Shown here piece by piece: positions 527 through 21,862 of a DNA stretch of 21,862 nt (within the stretch, counting starts at the first letter, position 1; every line of letters starts with the position of its first letter). The position numbers and the translations under genes are program-made. The DNA is from a virus. The stretch is taken from IMG/VR virus record IMGVR_UViG_3300020129_000743, positions 1-21,862 of that record. One strand, written 5' to 3'. The notes under the pieces are model-generated. The model saw only the letters and a program-made list of their open reading frames with translations, was not told the DNA's origin and made no database searches.

Positions 527-1768
527 CTAGGGGATCGCCACGACGGCCGCGCACTGCCACCAGTTCGTGCCGTCGCTCACGTACTGGACGATGTCGTTCG
601 CCGTCATCGCCAGGTTCGTACCGCCGGTGTTTCGGATGTTGCCCGGGCCGTTGTGGTTGATCGTGAGCGACCCCGTCGTCTGGAGCATGATGACGCGCCC
701 CGCATCGGCCGAACTCGTCGAGATGTTGTTGATCGTCGTGGTCCCGCTCACGAGATAGAAGAAGCCGTACGCGTCGGGCGAGATCGTGCTCGCCGAGGAC
801 ATCGTTGTCCCCTGCGCCTGGCGCTGCCACGACTGGATCCCCGGCCCGATCGGGAACCAGCGATTGTTCGAGTGGTCGCGGAGGTAGCTCGTCTCGCCAT
901 TCGCGTTGTCGAACACGAACGCCATGAAGTCCTTGTTCCCCGAGCCGTTCGTGAAGGTCTCGTTATAGATCGTGTTGGTCCAGGTAAAGGCACCATTCAC
1001 GACGATGTAGATGTATTGCTGATTGCTGACGCCAGACTTCTCCACGATCAGGTTGTTCGTGAGATTGGCGTCGAGCGTGATGTCCGTGTGGAGGAAGAGA
1101 TTCCGCGACGCCTCCACATACATGAGCGCCTTGCTCGGCGTCGTGCCGGCGCGTTCGAGATGCGTATGGACGAAGGTGTTCCACGCGCTCGTGACATCGA
1201 GGTTCGTCTGGGAGCACGCCTCGGCCCACGTGCCGTCGTAGTGGCAGCTCCCGCCACCCGTCTGCATTCCGATGAGACACGCGACGACCCAGATGTCCGA
1301 ATTGCGGATTGAGTTCGCGTTGAGAATAATGCCCGTGCCGCTCGGGAAGTCGCGCGCCAGAACGCGATGAAGGCCAGCGTTGCTCGTGAAGGTCGCGCCG
1401 CCCTGGTTCCCGAGGTTCAACCCGTCTCCGGCGCTCCCATTCCCACGGAACGAGATGTCCTGGATAATGATTCCCGACGCCCCGTTCGCGTTCCCTTCGC
1501 CGGCCGTCTTCTCCCGGAGCATCGTGCCCGTCGCGGCAGCGTCCCGCTGGAGCACGGTCTGCTGCGGACCGCACCCTTGCAGCATGCACTTCCCGTACAT
1601 CGTGAGGTTCGTGATGCCGGTGATCGTGACGCCGCCCACGAAGACCTTCCCGCCAGGGCCCGCGAAGTCGAATGCGGACTGGAGGCCTGCTTGCGTGCTC
1701 GCGAAGTTGTCCGCGCGCTTTTGCGCGTTCGTCATCGCCCAGATCGAGCCAACGTCAGCGAATGACAC
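527..1768 (-). CDS. Beta-helix tail appendage (tail fibre/spike-like)
   Basis: 413 aa, GTG start. A GAGGGGGG Shine-Dalgarno overlaps the stop of the preceding gene and sits just before the GTG, which supports this start over the in-frame ATG at codon 12. The body is rich in short strands with N, G, T and S turns (for example SGIIIQDISFRGNGSAGDGL and NNLIVEKSGVSNQQYIYIVV), the pattern of right-handed parallel beta-helices of the pectate-lyase fold. The last 70 or so residues (TTTINNISTSSADAG, LTINHNGPGNIRNTGG, DIVQYVSDGTNWWQC) match a terminal module common in phage and bacterial appendages. Such proteins bind or cleave surface glycans. I see no identifiable catalytic residues, so enzyme activity is not claimed. 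Its place between tape-measure-proximal tail genes and another tail gene supports a receptor-binding or decoration role at the tail tip. Confidence 0.75.
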   Translation of the reverse strand: MSFADVGSIWAMTNAQKRADNFASTQAGLQSAFDFAGPGGKVFVGGVTITGITNLTMYGKCMLQGCGPQQTVLQRDAAATGTMLREKTAGEGNANGASGIIIQDISFRGNGSAGDGLNLGNQGGATFTSNAGLHRVLARDFPSGTGIILNANSIRNSDIWVVACLIGMQTGGGSCHYDGTWAEACSQTNLDVTSAWNTFVHTHLERAGTTPSKALMYVEASRNLFLHTDITLDANLTNNLIVEKSGVSNQQYIYIVVNGAFTWTNTIYNETFTNGSGNKDFMAFVFDNANGETSYLRDHSNNRWFPIGPGIQSWQRQAQGTTMSSASTISPDAYGFFYLVSGTTTINNISTSSADAGRVIMLQTTGSLTINHNGPGNIRNTGGTNLAMTANDIVQYVSDGTNWWQCAAVVAIP

Positions 1769-1777
1769 GGTCCCCCC

Positions 1778-2656
1778 TCATACGTAGGGCTCGCTCTCGA
1801 ACGTGAACGTCAGTTGGTTATAGAGATCCTTGTTCTCGATCACGCCCTGGTATTCGAGCGAAGCCATCCGGCAAAGAAAGAACCCAGGGCGCGCGATGTT
1901 GTAGAGGCCTTGGAGCGTGCAGAAGACGGCCTGCTGCGGCGTCTCGGCGTTGGAATTGGTATCCCAGTCCGAGCGCCACCGATCCCAGAAGGCCTGCGTC
2001 GCGTGGTCGAACGTGAGTTGGACCGAGGTCGCGCGCTTCGCGTACTGGTTCAGGAGCGGCACGTTCCCCGCCGTCCGCGCGACGCCGCTTTGCTCGATGT
2101 CCGAGATCTTGTATTGGCTGATCGTGTCGGACGTGAAGTCCTGGCCGATCCCGAAGAAGATGCAGGTCGAACGTGGGAAAAGCCCCCAGTAGAGGATCGT
2201 CGCGACCTTCGTCCCGCCGCCCCGGTCCGAGTTCTTCTGCATGATCCGGTAGTAGCGCTTCGCCGGCGTCGGGACGGAGAAGGAGAGGAGATCGCAGTTC
2301 ACGAGCGACGTGGACGCAGTCTGGAGCGTGAGGTTGTTCACGTCGACGGGAGACGAGAACGCGGGATTGTCGGCCGAGTCGTACTGGAGCGTGAACTTGG
2401 TCTGGTCGCATCCGCGCGCGTCGTAGGCGACGGCGAAATAGGCGGCGCCGGCCGCGGAGCCGAGCTGCGTCGTGTCCCCGAGATCGGCCTGGAGCCACTG
2501 GTCGGACGTGCCGTTGATGGGCTTCCATCCGGCGCCGAGACCGTCCTCGCGCGAGTTGTCGATCGCGTAGCCCACGTCCGTGCTGCTCGCCGTGAGCACG
2601 GTCGCGGTGCGGGAGATGTGGACTTTGTTCCGGTGATAGAACTGGGGATCGATCAC
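1778..2656 (-). CDS. Distal tail protein with discoidin-like N-terminal half
   Basis: 292 aa, GTG start. The start overlaps the tape-measure stop by the four bases GTGA, so translation is probably coupled. Residues about 20-150 show a pattern typical of F5/8 type C (discoidin) carbohydrate-binding folds: AIDNSREDG, then W, then DQWLQADLGDTTQLG, later KFTLQYDSADNPAFSS and a YYRIM segment. The C-terminal half (DIEQSGVARTAGNVPLLNQY, VQLTFDHATQAFWDRWRSDW, LTFTFESEPYV) looks like a phage tail-tip domain. By position, directly after the tape measure, it matches the distal tail or baseplate slot of siphoviruses. The discoidin reading is by eye and would place a sugar-binding domain on the tail tip. 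The exact family is not recognised. Confidence 0.65.
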   Translation of the reverse strand: MIDPQFYHRNKVHISRTATVLTASSTDVGYAIDNSREDGLGAGWKPINGTSDQWLQADLGDTTQLGSAAGAAYFAVAYDARGCDQTKFTLQYDSADNPAFSSPVDVNNLTLQTASTSLVNCDLLSFSVPTPAKRYYRIMQKNSDRGGGTKVATILYWGLFPRSTCIFFGIGQDFTSDTISQYKISDIEQSGVARTAGNVPLLNQYAKRATSVQLTFDHATQAFWDRWRSDWDTNSNAETPQQAVFCTLQGLYNIARPGFFLCRMASLEYQGVIENKDLYNQLTFTFESEPYV

Positions 2657-4803
2657 CGATAGGCCCCCGTCGAAAGAACCTCACGGAGCATCGGCCAGAT
2701 CTCATTTCCCATCTCGGTACGGAAGTCGGCGCGCGAGGGGCCGCGCGTTCCGAGCCGCGGGGTCGGAGACCGGAACCCGTCGAGCCGAAGCGCGCCGCTG
2801 CGCGATCCCGACGCGGACGGCGTCGCCACGCGATCGATGAACTTGTCGAGCTTCATCAGGACGCGGGACCAGGAGTCCGTCTCGTTGTGGCGAAGAATCG
2901 CCTCGTCCCGGCCGAGCATTGCGTGGACCCCGTCGAGCCCGCGCACACCGTTCGTAATCAAGCCGCTCTGGGCGAAGTAGGGATTTGCGAAGGATCCGCG
3001 TGGGGCAGCCATGCCGCCCTGCTGGGCGAAGACGGCGCCCGATGCGATCGTCGAGCCCGCGCCGCCGATGAGCGACCCGATGAAGCCCCCGATCGTTCCC
3101 ACGATCGAGGACTTGATGAGCTGCGCCACGAATTCGAGGATCGCGCTCGCGATCGTCTTCATGAAGGTCTCGAACCGGTTCGCGCCCTGCGTGAGCCCGA
3201 TGATCGCGCTTCCGATCCCGGACCCGAGGGCCGAGATCGCGGAGCTCAATAGTTTGAGCTGCTTCGTTCCCGTCTCCGCGGCTGCGGCAACGGCAAGCGC
3301 GGGCCGATAGGCCGAGTCCCCGTAGGCTGGGATCACCCGGAACTGGGGCGGCCCGCCGTTCACCCCTTCCTGGCGCTCGGGGCGCGCCATGTATTCCGTG
3401 GAACGCTCGTTCAGGAGCTTCGTCCACTCCTCGTCCGAGAGCGTCGGCCCATAGGGACGCCCTTTCGTGAGGTTGTAGAGCTCCTTCGAGATGATCGCGA
3501 TCTCCTGCACCGTGAGGGCCTGCTGGCGCAGCGCTTCGAGCTTCTTGATCTCCTGGTCCAGCGTGATCGCGCCGATCGAGCGCTGGTACTCCAGGAGCGG
3601 GATCGTGATCTTCGTCTGCTCGTACTGATCCCGCGCCTGTTTCACGAGATCCTTCATCGCCTGGTTCGGTCCGGGCGAGACCGTCTTGATCGTTCCGAAG
3701 TCGACGATCCCCGGGGGCGGCGTCGCCTTCCCCTGGTCCTGCGTCTCCTTCCGGAACTGGTCCAGATCGTCGAGCCATCCGAGCATGTGCTCGTGGAACC
3801 AGGTCCCGAACTTATCGAAGGACGCGATCGCACCGTTCGCCCAGTTCAAGATCGCGGTCCCGGCCGGCGCGAGTGCAGCCGTAAACTTGTTCAACTCGCC
3901 CAGCATCGAGAGCTTGAACTCAAGCCCCGCCTTCCGCGCCGCTTCCGCCGTCTTCTCCATCGACGGCGTGAGCGTGATGCCGAGCTGTTCCGCCAGGGCC
4001 TGCGCCTCGGTCTGGTTTTGCTCGAGCACGGGGAGGATCGTTCGGGCACCCCGGCCGAAGAGCTCGAACGCCTCGGACGCGCGCCGCGCGGGGTCGGGGA
4101 TGTTGAAGAGCGCCGCCTTCACGTCCTCGAGCACGGTGCCCGTACTCTTCGCGAAGCCGTTCGAATCCGTGAGCGAGACCCCGAGCGTCTGGAAGGCCTT
4201 CTGCGCCTCCTTCGACCCGTCTCGCGCTTCGCCCAAATGGCGGACGAACATGAAAAGGGGCGCCTGGACGTCTTCGAAGGTCTCGCCGGCGCGGGCCGCG
4301 GCAACCCGGAGCCCACCGATCTCCTTCGAGCTGAGACCGGTCGTGTCCCGCATGATGTCGACCTGGTGCTGGAACTCGCCGATCCGCCCCGCCGCCGAGA
4401 TCGCCACGGTCCCGAAGAGCGTGAGACCGGCGATAACCGCGCTCACAGCGATACCCACGGGCCCCATCGAAGCCGCCACGCGAGAGATCGCCGCGACCTG
4501 CTGTCCGAGACCCGAAGTCACGCTCTGCATCGCGCCCTGGAGCTCCGCCTGCGCCGCCTGGAGCGCCGTGGTGCCCTGCGTGACCTTCGCCATCTCGGTA
4601 TGGAGCGCGCGCTGCGCCGCGGCCTGATTCAGCACCGCCTGGCCGAGCCGGAGATTGCTCTGGTAGGAGCCGTCGGCCGCGGCCCTGGCCCGGGTCACCT
4701 CGTCGCTCCAGCGCTTCACATCGGCGATCGACTGCCCCAAAGCCGACGCGGCACGGTTCTGGGCTTCGATCGAGATTTCTACGCTGGTCTTCTCAGTCCC
4801 CAC
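2653..4803 (-). CDS. Tail tape measure protein
   Basis: 716 aa, GTG start immediately after the TGA (4806-4804) of the frameshifted chaperone frame. It is the longest tail gene and follows the tail assembly chaperone, the usual place of the tape measure. Seen: an N-terminal helical, Ala/Gln-rich region (residues about 1-110), a hydrophobic segment at about 112-137 (MGPVGIAVSAVIAGLTLFGT), a conserved-looking stretch at about 155-255 (GLSSKEIGGLRVAAARAG, then ASEAFELFGRGARTILPVLE) typical of TP901-type tape measures, and a second hydrophobic Gly/Ile-rich region near residues 560-600. The C-terminus has a phage-typical GLDGVHAMLGRDEAILRH motif. The protein sets tail length and is ejected with the DNA. 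With the usual rule of about 0.15 nm per residue, a tail near 100 nm would be expected (inference). Confidence 0.9.
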   Translation of the reverse strand: MGTEKTSVEISIEAQNRAASALGQSIADVKRWSDEVTRARAAADGSYQSNLRLGQAVLNQAAAQRALHTEMAKVTQGTTALQAAQAELQGAMQSVTSGLGQQVAAISRVAASMGPVGIAVSAVIAGLTLFGTVAISAAGRIGEFQHQVDIMRDTTGLSSKEIGGLRVAAARAGETFEDVQAPLFMFVRHLGEARDGSKEAQKAFQTLGVSLTDSNGFAKSTGTVLEDVKAALFNIPDPARRASEAFELFGRGARTILPVLEQNQTEAQALAEQLGITLTPSMEKTAEAARKAGLEFKLSMLGELNKFTAALAPAGTAILNWANGAIASFDKFGTWFHEHMLGWLDDLDQFRKETQDQGKATPPPGIVDFGTIKTVSPGPNQAMKDLVKQARDQYEQTKITIPLLEYQRSIGAITLDQEIKKLEALRQQALTVQEIAIISKELYNLTKGRPYGPTLSDEEWTKLLNERSTEYMARPERQEGVNGGPPQFRVIPAYGDSAYRPALAVAAAAETGTKQLKLLSSAISALGSGIGSAIIGLTQGANRFETFMKTIASAILEFVAQLIKSSIVGTIGGFIGSLIGGAGSTIASGAVFAQQGGMAAPRGSFANPYFAQSGLITNGVRGLDGVHAMLGRDEAILRHNETDSWSRVLMKLDKFIDRVATPSASGSRSGALRLDGFRSPTPRLGTRGPSRADFRTEMGNEIWPMLREVLSTGAYR

Positions 4804-5470
4804 TCACCGCCCCATGCTCTTCGCCATCGCGGCCCGTAGTTCCGAGCCCTCCGGCAAGGTGTCGAGCCAATCCGCCCACGCCTCCCGCGACTTCCCCAGG
4901 ATTTCCTCTTTCCCCTCCGCCTCCCCGTTCGGCGTCTGCTTCTGCTCCCACTCGCGCGCGCGCCTCAGGACGTCCAGGTCGAACGCAAGGTCATCGAGAT
5001 CGAGGTGTCGCAGCTCGGACGGGAGCCGCCCGAAGGCCTCCCCGATCGCGTAGAGGGAGAGGAGGTACGGCAGGTGTTCAAAGCGCCCTCCGTGCGGTCT
5101 CGGTCTTCACGGGCGCGAGCGCGCTCAGGATCTGGGATCCCAACCAGTTGAGATCCGTCCAGAGAACGGCCGAGATCGGAAGCCACTCCACGTCCTCGCC
5201 CGGCTCCGTGAAATCTTTCGCCGTGTCGTCGAGGAGCTTCGGCGAGTCGACGCACTGGAGCGCGAGCGCGCGGTTCAATGCGTTCTGCTGCTCGACGCTC
5301 TCCTTCGAGACCACGACCTCGCCGTCGTCCTTGTAGGTGAGTGGCGGGAGGTTCCCGAAGACGGCCCCGTACTCGTCCGCCGTGGGCCGGTGCCACTGGT
5401 AGAGTTGCCCCGAGGGGCCCACACCCTCTCCTCGAGCGCGGGCCCCGTACTGCTTCGCGAGATTTCCCAT
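4804..5470 (-). CDS. Tail assembly chaperone, long frameshift product (gpGT-like)
   Basis: Predicted fusion of 221 aa made by a +1 shift at CTT-TGA: codons 1-130 are read from 5470 to 5081, base 5080 is skipped, and 91 further codons are read from 5079 to 4807, ending at TGA 4806-4804. The second frame (EHLPYLLSLYAIGEAFGRLP at its start, AAMAKSMGR at its end) has no ATG, GTG or TTG for its first 74 codons, so it can hardly be translated on its own. Its content is helical and charged (DLDVLRRAREWEQ, REAWADWLDTLPEG), as in gpT-like extensions that bind the tape measure. Long-tailed phages commonly make two chaperone forms by frameshifting between the tail tube and tape measure genes; this is that position. 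The shift itself is inferred from the sequence. Confidence 0.8.
5078..5094 (-). promoter_or_regulatory. +1 ribosomal frameshift site CGG AGG GCG CTT TGA
   Basis: On the coding strand the last codons of the short chaperone read CGG AGG GCG CTT TGA, followed by ACA. The Leu codon CTT can slip +1 onto TTT, after which GAA CAC CTG continues the 91-codon open frame. GGAGG lies exactly 3 nt before CTT, the arrangement of the bacterial prfB (RF2) frameshift site. The base after the stop is A here, not the C found in prfB. Shift direction is fixed by the frames: +1 (or -2) joins them, and -1 does not. Confidence 0.8.
5078..5470 (-). CDS. Tail assembly chaperone, short product (gpG-like)
   Basis: 130 aa from ATG 5470, with an AAGGGGGAG Shine-Dalgarno just upstream, ending at the in-frame TGA that is also the frameshift stop. 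Function is by synteny: it sits between the major tail protein (5501-6562) and the tape measure (2653-4803), where lambda-type gpG chaperones lie. Seen: KQYGARARGEGVGPSGQLYQW near the N-terminus, a middle with KDDGEVVVSKESVEQQNALN and a C-terminal WLPISAVLWTDLNWLGSQIL segment. The short form would coat the tape measure during tail assembly and be absent from the virion. Sequence similarity to a named family is not recognised. The frameshift architecture downstream is the strongest support. Confidence 0.8.
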   Translation of the reverse strand: MGNLAKQYGARARGEGVGPSGQLYQWHRPTADEYGAVFGNLPPLTYKDDGEVVVSKESVEQQNALNRALALQCVDSPKLLDDTAKDFTEPGEDVEWLPISAVLWTDLNWLGSQILSALAPVKTETARRAL

Positions 5471-5500: not shown

Positions 5501-6562
5501 TTACGTACCGGTCGTCTGGATCACCCGGAAGTCGTCCGTGCCCGTCCCGGCCATCGTGTCCGGATACATGAGGCCGTTGAACGTGAAGCCCACGACGCCC
5601 TCGCCCTGGTAGACGGGCTTCGGATCGTCGATCACGACCGGCTTCACCGCGCCCGAGCACTGGATCGTGAGCGAGTCGTTCGCATCGACGTAGTACTTGA
5701 GCTGCAGGTTCTCGCGCGTCGGCGAGAAGAAGTCGGTGAAGAGCGTCACCGCGTCCGCGGTCGAGATGTCGTCGAAGTCCATCTCGAACGCCGCAGACAG
5801 GGTCGGGAACCCTGCACGCGTCGGAAGCGCCAGCTCCTGGCCCGACGCGGCACCCAGGAAGGGCTCGTAGCGGAGATTGTTGTCGAGCGTGAAGACGATC
5901 CGCTTCGCCTTGAAGTCCGTGGTCGGAGGGTTCGCGGCGCCGATATAGAGGCCCGAGTTCGCGGACTGGATCGCGTGCTGCCACGCGAGCGTCGTCCCCG
6001 TGATATCGGCGAATCCCGGCGCCGAGCTCGACGCGTACTTCTGCCCCGTCCCCGTGAGCTGGAAGCGAAGCTGCGCGTTCGCCTCCATCGTCATGATGAA
6101 GCGGTTGATGCACACGTCCTGGACGACCCGCGGCGAGAGCGCGTTCGTCCCGTCGTGCGGGATCTCCCGGATCGTGAGTGAGCGGTTGTAGAAGCTGCCG
6201 CCACCGTCCGCCGTGCTCGGATCGACCGGAGGATCGTTCAGCACGTACGTGTGCGTGAACGGAGCCGACGCGCCCGTCTTGATCCGCTTCGAGAACGCGG
6301 ACGTGAGAAGCGGGAGGAGCGCCGTGTCGTTCGCGACATATTCCAGCGTCACCTCGAAGTCGGTGAGCGAGATCGTCTGCCAGAGCTGGGACGCGCGCGG
6401 CATGATCTGCCCCGTCGTCACACGCGGCTGATTCGTCTGGCGCGTCGAGAAGATCGAGCCCGTCCGGATGAAGGCGGCCGTGGTGAGCGAGCTCTGCACC
6501 GTTCCGAACGCGGACTGCATTCCGAAGCCGATATAACTTGCCCGCCCAATCGCCTTCCCCAT
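5501..6562 (-). CDS. Major tail tube protein
   Basis: 353 aa, ATG start two bases or fewer from the preceding stop TAG (6565-6563). It starts MGKAIGRASYIGFGMQSAFG, a common opening of phage major tail proteins (glycine-rich start with a G-x-Q-S/T-x-x-G motif). The rest is beta-rich: LTDFEVTLEYVANDTALLPL, RFQLTGTGQKYA, RIVFTLDNNLRYEP, ending with VVGFTFNGLMYP and a short Thr/Asp-rich tail. This fits the tail-tube fold of siphoviruses, where hexameric rings stack to make the tube. It lies directly upstream of the tail assembly chaperone and tape measure, the normal order. The size is at the larger end for tube proteins and leaves room for an extra surface domain, but I cannot delimit one. No tail sheath gene is present, which supports a non-contractile tail. 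Confidence 0.8.
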   Translation of the reverse strand: MGKAIGRASYIGFGMQSAFGTVQSSLTTAAFIRTGSIFSTRQTNQPRVTTGQIMPRASQLWQTISLTDFEVTLEYVANDTALLPLLTSAFSKRIKTGASAPFTHTYVLNDPPVDPSTADGGGSFYNRSLTIREIPHDGTNALSPRVVQDVCINRFIMTMEANAQLRFQLTGTGQKYASSSAPGFADITGTTLAWQHAIQSANSGLYIGAANPPTTDFKAKRIVFTLDNNLRYEPFLGAASGQELALPTRAGFPTLSAAFEMDFDDISTADAVTLFTDFFSPTRENLQLKYYVDANDSLTIQCSGAVKPVVIDDPKPVYQGEGVVGFTFNGLMYPDTMAGTGTDDFRVIQTTGT

Positions 6563-12142: not shown

Positions 12143-14353
12143 CTACGCCGCTTGCTGCTGCTCTTGGTCGCGCCAGACAAAGACGGGCGCACAACGGCAG
12201 TTGTCGCCGTCCGCGCCGTCGCAATTCGGATTCGGGACCTGCGATCCCCAGTCCTCGGGATCGAGCTCTTCTCCGTCCATCGCTTCACACGCGGGACAGG
12301 TCGCGCCGTCCATCATCGCGGAGTAAAAGACCGTGGCGATTTCGTCCTGCATCGCCTGTCCCTGCTCGACGCGCCCCGTCGTGTAGGCCTGGGTCATCTT
12401 CCCCGCGACGAGGCTTTGCACCTTCGGGATCGAGAGCGCTTCGAGCGCGCTCCGCACGGCCGCGGTGACTTCTTCCGCGGGAAGCTCCTGGTCCTGCGCC
12501 TGCTGCCCCGCGCGCACTGCTTCCTGGAGCATCGGGAGCGTCATGCCCAACGCGAGCCCCTGCGCGAGCCGTTTGATCCAGGTCTGCTGCTTCGACGTGG
12601 GTTCCGCGGGGTACTGCGACGCGAGATCTCCGCTCGCTCCGCTCGCCGCCTTCTTCACACGCGCGCGCTGCGCTTCCTCGAGCACGTGCCTACGCCCTGT
12701 GCGATAGGAATCGGTCAATCCCGCGGTGAGCGCGTTCGTGAGTTCGGGAAGGAGCGGCTTCGGAAGCTGACCCTGCGCGAGCTGCGCTTCGCTCGCCGAT
12801 CCCGCCGCCGCGGCGAGCGCTTTCACCTGCTCCTGGCGAATCGGGAGCACGTCCCGGTACCAGAGCTTGCTCGGCGAGTGATCGAGGTGATCACGCATCG
12901 CCGACCAGTCCACACCCTGCTCATGCGCGAGCGGTGGCCGGCGCATCGGATAGGCTGGACTCACGCCGACGGCGCCGGCGCGCTTTCGCATCTTCTTCGT
13001 GTCGGACGTACCGGCCTTGGCGGGCGACGCGGCCGGAGGCCGTTCTCCGCGGGCGTTTGGCTCCTGCGCGGTGGCGGCCGCCGCATCGCCCCCACCAAAG
13101 CCGGTCTGCTGCTGCGGAATCGGTTCGAGCGTCGCGGGATCCTCGTCCGGAAAGGCGAGCTTCTGGCGGAAGTACTGGCGCAAGGGCTGATCGACCCGGA
13201 TCACGCCCCACTGGACGAGTGGGCCCATGAGCTGCGCGAGCCGATCCGGTTTCGCCTGCAGGAAGTTCTCACACACGAGCCGCGGATACCGCTCGCGCTC
13301 GCCGTAGTTGAGATCGACCAGGTCCTTGATCGCCTGCGCACCAAAGTCGTCCGAGACCTGATTAGCGACGCCCTGGTAGGCGTAGAGCATGAACTCGCTT
13401 TGGATCTCACCAACGGCGCGCGCTCCCTTCTCGCCCTGGCCCAAGGACTGCCATTCGGAAAGCATGCAGCTTTCGATCTGCTGGTCGTGGTAGTGCGCGC
13501 TCTCGAGGCAGTTCGCGTTATTGCCCTGGGGGAACACGGCGTGGAGTTCGAACACGCTCGGGATGTACATGGCCTGGTTCTGGTGGATCCGAAACTGCGA
13601 GATCGCGCTCTTCGCCTTCTCGATCTGCTCGGGCGACGGGGTCTGGTTCTCTTTTGACTGCACCCAGAAGACGCCGCCGGCGCGCTCTTTCTGGATCGCA
13701 TCGAAGCCCAAGATCGAGCGCTTCCAACGCCAGTGTGGGTGCGCGGGACGAAGGATCGACTCGCCCCACCAGTTGTCACCTTCGCGGTTGAAGGAGAGAA
13801 CGACGAGGTTCGCGGCGGGCATCGTCTTCAAGCCCTTACGCTGTGTCCACTGGGTGACGCTATCGAGGCCCGAGGGACCGGAGTCCGTGAGATTGAAATG
13901 CCAGATCGTCTTTGCGGGCCGCGGCTCGAACGCCGCGATCACCTGCTTCCCGTCAGAGGGGCGATAGCCGTAGATCTTCTCGAGCACGCTGTATCCGTGC
14001 ACGGTCATGAGGAGTGCGGAGCGAAGCGTCTGATACCACGTCCCGTACCCGGCGTATCCGTATGCTTCGCCCGGCATCAGGACCGAGCGAACGAACTCCG
14101 CGATCTCGTCCTCTTCTGGATTCCCCTTCTCGACGGAGTCGACGCGCCACTCGGCCGCGAGAAGGCAATAGAGAAGCCGGTTGATGCAGCTCCGCACCTT
14201 ACCGTCGCTCTTTCGCATCTTCTCGTAGGTCTGGACCGCGTTCTGCGGGGTGTTGAGATCGACGTTGTACTCTTCGGGCGTCCAGAGCTCGTTCCCGTAG
14301 GTAAAGGCGCCGGCGTCGCCAATCCCTGTTCCCACGCGCTCAAGCAAAGGCAT
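12143..14353 (-). CDS. Portal protein fused to a MuF-type C-terminal domain
   Basis: 736 aa, ATG start overlapping the terminase stop by 14 bases; GGAGGG lies about 12 nt upstream. Residues about 1-400 match DUF935/Mu gp29-type portals: NTPQNAVQTYEKMRKSDGKV, SCINRLLYCLLAAEWRVDSV, YGTWYQTLRSALLMTVHGYS, MPAANLVVLSFNREGDNWWG, RPAHPHWRWKRSILGFDAIQ. Residues about 415-500 are Ala/Pro/Gly-rich and probably a linker. The rest is helical, and residues 680-722 carry the MuF motif: SAMMDGATCPACEAMDGEEL followed by NPNCDG and NCRC, with cysteines at 686, 689, 711, 719 and 721. In Mu these are two genes (portal gp29 and head protein gp30/F). Portal rings are the DNA entry gate and dock the terminase. MuF domains are minor head proteins that help assembly or carry ejected effectors. 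No toxin domain is seen after the MuF motif. Confidence 0.85.
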   Translation of the reverse strand: MPLLERVGTGIGDAGAFTYGNELWTPEEYNVDLNTPQNAVQTYEKMRKSDGKVRSCINRLLYCLLAAEWRVDSVEKGNPEEDEIAEFVRSVLMPGEAYGYAGYGTWYQTLRSALLMTVHGYSVLEKIYGYRPSDGKQVIAAFEPRPAKTIWHFNLTDSGPSGLDSVTQWTQRKGLKTMPAANLVVLSFNREGDNWWGESILRPAHPHWRWKRSILGFDAIQKERAGGVFWVQSKENQTPSPEQIEKAKSAISQFRIHQNQAMYIPSVFELHAVFPQGNNANCLESAHYHDQQIESCMLSEWQSLGQGEKGARAVGEIQSEFMLYAYQGVANQVSDDFGAQAIKDLVDLNYGERERYPRLVCENFLQAKPDRLAQLMGPLVQWGVIRVDQPLRQYFRQKLAFPDEDPATLEPIPQQQTGFGGGDAAAATAQEPNARGERPPAASPAKAGTSDTKKMRKRAGAVGVSPAYPMRRPPLAHEQGVDWSAMRDHLDHSPSKLWYRDVLPIRQEQVKALAAAAGSASEAQLAQGQLPKPLLPELTNALTAGLTDSYRTGRRHVLEEAQRARVKKAASGASGDLASQYPAEPTSKQQTWIKRLAQGLALGMTLPMLQEAVRAGQQAQDQELPAEEVTAAVRSALEALSIPKVQSLVAGKMTQAYTTGRVEQGQAMQDEIATVFYSAMMDGATCPACEAMDGEELDPEDWGSQVPNPNCDGADGDNCRCAPVFVWRDQEQQQAA

Positions 14354-20980: not shown

Positions 20981-21862
20981 GTGGGCCGAGAACCTGTCGG
21001 CCCAAGGATGGGCGAACTGAGAGACCTGGTCCTACGGGACTATCGGATCAACGAGCGCCGAAGCATTGGCCGCGCGCGGGCCGCGTTCGCGCACCTGTCC
21101 CAGCTCGAGGTCGTGCCGCTACGTGGCGCCCACGACGTGACGTCCCGCTACGCCGCGCGCCGCACTCGAGCGGGGGCCGCAGCCGCGACGGTGCGCTACG
21201 AGCTCGCGATGCTACGCCGCGGGCTCACCCTGGCGCATCGCGCCGGGAGGATCGAGGCGAGGCCCGCGCTCCCCACGATCCGGGTCCAGAACGCGCGGCA
21301 GGGCTTCTTCACGGATCAGGAACTCGAGCTCCTGATCGCGGCGCTTCCCGACCCAGTGGACGACATGGCGCGGTTCGCGTCGATCACGGGCTGGCGGATC
21401 TCGGAGATCCGGTCCCTTACGTGGGACCAGGTCGACCGGCGCGCGGGCTTGATCCGGCTCGGTCCCGGGACGACAAAGAACGGCGAGGGTCGCGTCTTCC
21501 CATACGGGGCCCATCCCGAGCTCGCGCACCTCTTCCGTTGGCTCTATTCCCGCCGGATGGGCGAGCACGTCTTTCACCGAAGCGGGCGGCGCGTGAAGCA
21601 CGTCGCGGGGAGTTGGAATCTTGCTTGCCGAAAGCTCAAGCTCGGGCGTAGGGTGTTCCACGACTTGAGACGGACGGCCGTTCGCAATATGGAGCGCGCC
21701 GGCGTCCCGCGATCGGTACAGATGAAACTCATTGGGCTCAAGACGGAGTCGATTCATCACCGCTATGCCATCACCAACGAAGAAGACCTCGCGCGCGGCG
21801 TCGCGCTCCTCGCGGCGAAAGAAAGACCCGGCGGCAGTCGCACTTGGGAAGCGTCGAGCTAA
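20981..21862 (+). CDS. int: Tyrosine recombinase / integrase
   Basis: 293 aa from GTG 20981, six bases after the lipoprotein stop; ATG 21008 is an alternative start, and neither has a clear ribosome site. Core-binding part at the N-terminus (DLVLRDYRINERRSIGRARA, VRYELAMLRRGLTLAHRAGR). Catalytic part: Arg139 in ITGWRISEIRSLTW, Lys166 in GTTKNGEGRVF, His227 and Arg230 in VFHDLRRTAVRNM, and Tyr262 in SIHHRYAI. The usual GHK motif before the tyrosine is IGLK here, so Leu253 replaces the conserved His/Trp. The enzyme would integrate and excise the phage at an attachment site. The stop TAA is at the last bases of the window, so the att site is not visible. It is probably co-transcribed with the lipoprotein gene. 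Confidence 0.85.
   Translation: MGREPVGPRMGELRDLVLRDYRINERRSIGRARAAFAHLSQLEVVPLRGAHDVTSRYAARRTRAGAAAATVRYELAMLRRGLTLAHRAGRIEARPALPTIRVQNARQGFFTDQELELLIAALPDPVDDMARFASITGWRISEIRSLTWDQVDRRAGLIRLGPGTTKNGEGRVFPYGAHPELAHLFRWLYSRRMGEHVFHRSGRRVKHVAGSWNLACRKLKLGRRVFHDLRRTAVRNMERAGVPRSVQMKLIGLKTESIHHRYAITNEEDLARGVALLAAKERPGGSRTWEASS

Follow-up and report, generated by a model that had tools for sequence, protein, structure and literature searches.

In the virus record analyzed here (the window, 21,862 nt), the gene between the tail tube and tape measure genes is very likely expressed by programmed +1 frameshifting, in which a single start codon would give a short product and, after a slip deduced from the reading frames, a minor form with a 91-residue C-terminal extension. 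The textbook case of +1 frameshifting in bacteria is a CUU-UGA site preceded, at a distance of three bases, by a Shine-Dalgarno sequence; this arrangement has hitherto been treated as private to prfB, the gene for release factor 2 (RF2). We propose that the phage site is probably a real signal of this RF2 style, which would produce the long form of the gene in the tail chaperone position.

The late genes of the window lie on the minus strand, in the order terminase, portal, prohead protease, major capsid, neck, tail tube, the two-frame gene, tape measure and tail tip/spike. The features relevant to the frameshift are as follows:

5501 to 6562, minus strand: tail tube protein gene; its homologue in the related contig L001, about 75-76% identical, matches PF18906 (Phage_tube_2) above the cut-off.
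5078 to 5470, minus strand: zero-frame short product of 130 aa, a putative tail assembly chaperone (gpG-like by position); open reading frame with relatives in L001 and L007.
5087 to 5091, minus strand: Shine-Dalgarno-like GGAGG, ending 3 nt before CTT; identical in L001.
5078 to 5083, minus strand: putative shift site CTT TGA (slippery CTTT, T5080 skipped); identical in L001.
5078 to 5092, minus strand: 15-nt block CGGAGGGCGCTTTGA, invariant between two diverged phages.
4804 to 5079, minus strand: +1-frame extension of 91 codons plus TGA; codon usage, and 44% amino acid identity with L001.
2653 to 4803, minus strand: tape measure protein gene; matches PHROG tape measure families (best 5.4e-16).

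Judged by these matches, the identities of the two neighbors, tail tube and tape measure, are secure. The zero frame runs from the ATG at 5470 to the TGA at 5080-5078 and ends CGG AGG GCG CTT TGA, with the spacer GCG at 5086-5084 and CTT at 5083-5081. This ending, and GGAGG 3 nt before CTT, had been described in a preceding sequence-only reading, and the minus strand matches that description at every base. When T5080 is skipped, leucine 130 is joined to glutamate and reading continues GAA CAC CTG CCG TAC. The +1 frame has no ATG, GTG or TTG in its first 74 codons (the first TTG is codon 75), and its TGA at 4806-4804 is directly followed by the tape-measure GTG start (4803); the open reading frame coordinates thus bear out the earlier description of a 91-codon frame that lacks a start for 74 codons and extends up to this GTG. 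The two frames overlap by about 10 codons in the window, the upstream limit being a +1-frame TGA at GTGAAG. The base after the stop codon is A in the window, as the same reading had stated in comparison with the C of prfB, and G in L001.

An open +1 frame is by itself weak evidence in DNA of 65% GC. Codon-usage log-odds for the +1 frame were +34.2 bits in the window and +28.6 bits in L001. The other sense frames of the window scored -62 and -58, and across both phages all of them scored -43.7 or lower (about -44 to -69 bits). The substitution pattern of the extension gave a BLOSUM sum of 190 in the +1 frame vs. 48 and 55 off-frame, and the 44% identity of the extension between the window and L001 was lost in the other frames. 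We conclude that, in both phages, the +1 frame encodes protein and the other sense frames do not. These scores also bear on a start at the UUG within CUUUGA (5 nt downstream of GGAGG), which could open a small -1-frame peptide and leave the +1 frame a mere shadow. Such a TTG stands at a workable ribosome-binding-site spacing, and its frame stays open over some 38 codons in each phage; yet codon usage marks both non-+1 sense frames as non-coding in the two phages, and their conservation does not exceed shadow level, which makes this peptide highly improbable.

With the tail tube as bait, we found one independent relative that contains the whole region. It is represented by two contigs from two metagenomes, L001 and L002 (3300044712_000525 and 3300045051_000644), which show 3 differences in a 3,596-nt overlap and have the same site. 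The short frame of L001 has 127 codons and ends CAG CGG AGG GCG CTT TGA G; its +1 continuation comprises 87 codons, and the end of it overlaps the GTG of the tape measure gene. The fused proteins of the window and L001 are 44% identical, while CGGAGGGCGCTTTGA is identical and the RRAL-E junction is the same. The short product alone shares 43% identity with L001 and 37% with a third relative, L007 (partial), which ends inside the short frame and therefore allows comparison of this frame only. The viral-contig scans yielded in all this one full-site relative, seen in two contigs, and the one partial relative. Further searches did not return homologues of the chaperone or the tail tube by tblastn against 50,697 phage records, of the tail tube by tblastn against plasmids, or of either protein by profile in the genome collection, and contigs reached via the neck protein (L050-L061) had no detectable homologous tail tube or chaperone. 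From the alignment, we infer that the same two-frame gene is kept by two heavily diverged phages.

The homologue comparison proposed in the sequence-only reading was favorable to it: CTT-TGA and GGAGG are kept in L001 among diverged flanking codons, and L001 joins its frames at the same site without sharing a start codon for the +1 frame. The reading of an RF2-layout +1 frameshift is thereby supported, with n = 1 independent relative for the whole region. A miscalled base at the T-run, a concern raised earlier, is excluded by the same site in L001/L002 from two metagenomes. That the frame change stems from gene decay, or from an error in sequencing or assembly, is in general barely conceivable: TTT is a short homopolymer within the site, but the phage that carries the identical site is only 44% identical and both frames are under coding constraint.

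The window and L001 have no ATG, GTG, TTG, CTG or ATC in common around the beginning of the extension, so independent initiation does not explain it. This matters for termination-reinitiation, in which GGAGG would be the ribosome-binding site of a separate downstream gene that begins at a non-AUG start (CTG, codon 3) after the UGA. The window does have a CTG as the third codon of its extension, 13 nt downstream of GGAGG and not listed in the sequence-only reading, and in two other contigs (L025 and L036) the same 15-mer appears to be a normal ribosome-binding site for an overlapping TGATG start. However, ATG, GTG and TTG do not occur in the L001 +1 frame before codon 49, nor CTG and ATC before codon 18, and conserved residues occur from the junction glutamate and over codons 9-15 of the extension. 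Additionally, CTT is conserved, although a ribosome-binding site does not need it. We therefore regard reinitiation as unlikely.

Since the overlap comprises only about 10 codons, a shift must fall there, and the sole conserved part of the overlap is the motif: its final 15 nt, CGGAGGGCGCTTTGA, are the only block in which the two phages agree. A net +1 change could be real and yet come about differently or elsewhere in the overlap, for example by a -2 slip, which is equivalent to net +1, or on another codon. A -2 shift is known for the phage Mu chaperone. In our case, the overlap outside the 15-nt motif is not conserved and has no obvious slippery run, and we consider a different route very unlikely.

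We return to the +1 shift at CTT-TGA and to how often its layout would arise by chance. Given the codon usage of the phage, an in-register GGAGG followed by CTT-TGA is expected at about 1.5e-6 per gene end. In-register GGAGG occurs twice in the 5,425 codons of the phage; AGG accounts for 16 of 396 arginine codons (4%) and CTT for 48 of 460 leucine codons (10%). The 15-nt block is the longest identical run in the alignment of the window with L001. An identical run of at least 15 nt appeared somewhere in the alignment in 24% of codon shuffles, and 15-nt identity at exactly this place has a chance of about 0.005 (by arithmetic, 0.27^4). Taken alone, the identity of this block would thus be moderate evidence, yet it coincides with a layout that prfB had specified in advance. 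The predicted duplex with the anti-Shine-Dalgarno is -10.0 kcal/mol for GGAGG vs. -10.3 kcal/mol for AGGGGG of Escherichia coli prfB, in the same register, although the anti-Shine-Dalgarno of the host may differ. We did not detect a 3' stem-loop stimulator or RNA structure at the site above the shuffled level, as expected for a prfB-type site.

The exact 15-mer CGGAGGGCGCTTTGA was found in 34 viral stretches. Leaving L031 aside, only the chaperone relatives among them look like two coding frames joined at this point. In L025 (5980-5994) and L036 (3734-3748) the 15-mer ends head-tail connector genes (PF05135) and is followed by TG; its GGAGG there looks like an ordinary ribosome-binding site for the overlapping TGATG start, and would provide a natural contrast to the chaperone site. 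In L031, a 178-kb viral contig, a 644-aa frame (3290-5224, minus strand) with no Pfam match ends with CGGAGGGCGCTTTGA, which is followed by an open 60-codon +1 frame; this may be a further RF2-like site or a chance match.

The slip of tRNA-Leu from CUU to UUU in prfB is made possible by a slow UGA together with an SD-like AGGGGG that lies three bases ahead of CTTT, and the spacer codon and the base after the stop modulate the efficiency (PMC12421855, PMC13245932). By analogy, we propose that the ribosome would halt in the phage gene while CUU occupies the P site and UGA the A site. Behind it, GGAGG would pair with the 16S anti-Shine-Dalgarno, and the tight 3-nt spacing would strain the P-site codon. 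While the UGA awaits RF2, tRNA-Leu could re-pair from CUU to UUU, and translation would resume at GAA.

The likeness to prfB comprises the CTT TGA site, present in both phages, the SD-like purine block exactly 3 nt before CTT with anti-Shine-Dalgarno pairing of similar strength in the same register, the UGA stop (read by RF2) and the lack of a 3' structure signal. In contrast, the gene is a different one, and the site ends a 130-codon frame, whereas that of prfB lies at codon ~25. The phage has CGGAGG vs. AGGGGG, the spacer GCG vs. UAU/UCU, and A or G vs. C after the stop; additionally, both the short and the long phage product are presumably functional and an autoregulatory loop is lacking. 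As far as the sequence can tell, the phage signal has the core features of prfB and not its two modulators. Both departures, the strongly pairing GCG before CUU (UAU/UCU in prfB) and the A or G that follows UGA (C in prfB), are expected to keep the shift at a low level. A low rate suits a tail chaperone that needs little fusion product: phage lambda makes about 30 gpG per gpGT (PMC5009743), and chaperone shifts reported for another family were 6-7% (PMC3711429). The site may therefore be viewed as a "de-tuned prfB signal", and what is known of RF2 suggests that the chaperone ratio could depend on the efficiency of RF2/UGA termination. We give an even chance to the broader proposal that this phage lineage has placed its chaperone ratio under the RF2-UGA termination clock of the host through a de-tuned copy of the prfB signal, which would be the first outside prfB.

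All CUU-stop +1 entries in the RECODE set of one study are reported to be prfB (PMC10885494). In the openly searchable literature, which defines the scope of our search, we did not find a CUU-stop +1 site outside prfB or such a signal in chaperone-type genes. Phages are known to use +1 "shifty stops" at CCC-UAA (SPP1 gene 17.1) and CCC-UAG (mtp-tpeX of lactococcal 936 phages) (PMC6316719, PMC4759559). As far as the available text of these reports goes, they resemble our site in a +1 shift on the codon preceding the stop of a phage tail gene; they differ in the proline codon, in UAA/UAG and in extending the tail-tube protein rather than the gene before the tape measure, and that text does not report a prfB-like layout. 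For the haloarchaeal myovirus HSTV-2, a +1 shift is very likely in the tail chaperone (PMC5009743), which makes it similar in gene and probable shift direction and different in its archaeal host.

The assignment of the gene as a putative G/GT-type tail assembly chaperone follows from position alone (tail tube before, tape measure after). Two overlapping frames lie between these genes, as is characteristic of the G/GT type, and long-tailed phages generally have a chaperone frameshift at this place in the map (PMC5009743). The gene shares with lambda G/GT this position and a short and a C-terminally extended product from overlapping frames. In contrast, its shift would be +1 at CTT-TGA, driven by the Shine-Dalgarno and the stop, whereas that of lambda is -1 on a slippery heptamer; a heptamer shift is usual, though not obligatory, for the G/GT type. 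Sequence similarity to known chaperones was not detected: searches of Pfam, PHROGs and PDB sequences with both products gave no match, and hhalign against chaperone-position proteins of distant phages was negative. An AlphaFold model of the product (pLDDT 44) was too poor for a fold search. In three distantly related annotated phages that we inspected, the chaperone frames appear to be joined by -1 shifts. Separately, the chaperone-position gene of Synechococcus phage S-LBS1 (L063, 2588-3309) is annotated as "ATPase component of ABC-type cobalamin transport"; it ends AAAAAAC TGA with a -1 frame open up to the tape measure, and is probably a misannotated -1 frameshift chaperone.

If our reading is true, a prfB-type signal is portable into a structural phage gene and tunable to a low fixed ratio via the stop context and the E-site codon. 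The site would also provide a readily testable link between termination efficiency and tail assembly; under the broader proposal above, the chaperone ratio would track the RF2 autoregulation of the host or be buffered by it. Annotation tools, whose current searches mostly address -1 heptamers, should look for stop-assisted +1 sites before the tape measure.

Other genes of the window were also noted. The portal protein (Portal_Mu, 12143-14353, minus strand) has a C-terminal Phage_Mu_F domain in a single 736-aa frame, and the tail spike (527-1768, minus strand) carries a Phage_depo_C domain and is a probable depolymerase. Opposite to the late genes, a PEGA-domain lipoprotein-like protein (PF08308; 20312-20974, plus strand) adjoins a tyrosine-type integrase (20981-21862, plus strand), and is possibly a lysogeny-side or host-derived gene.
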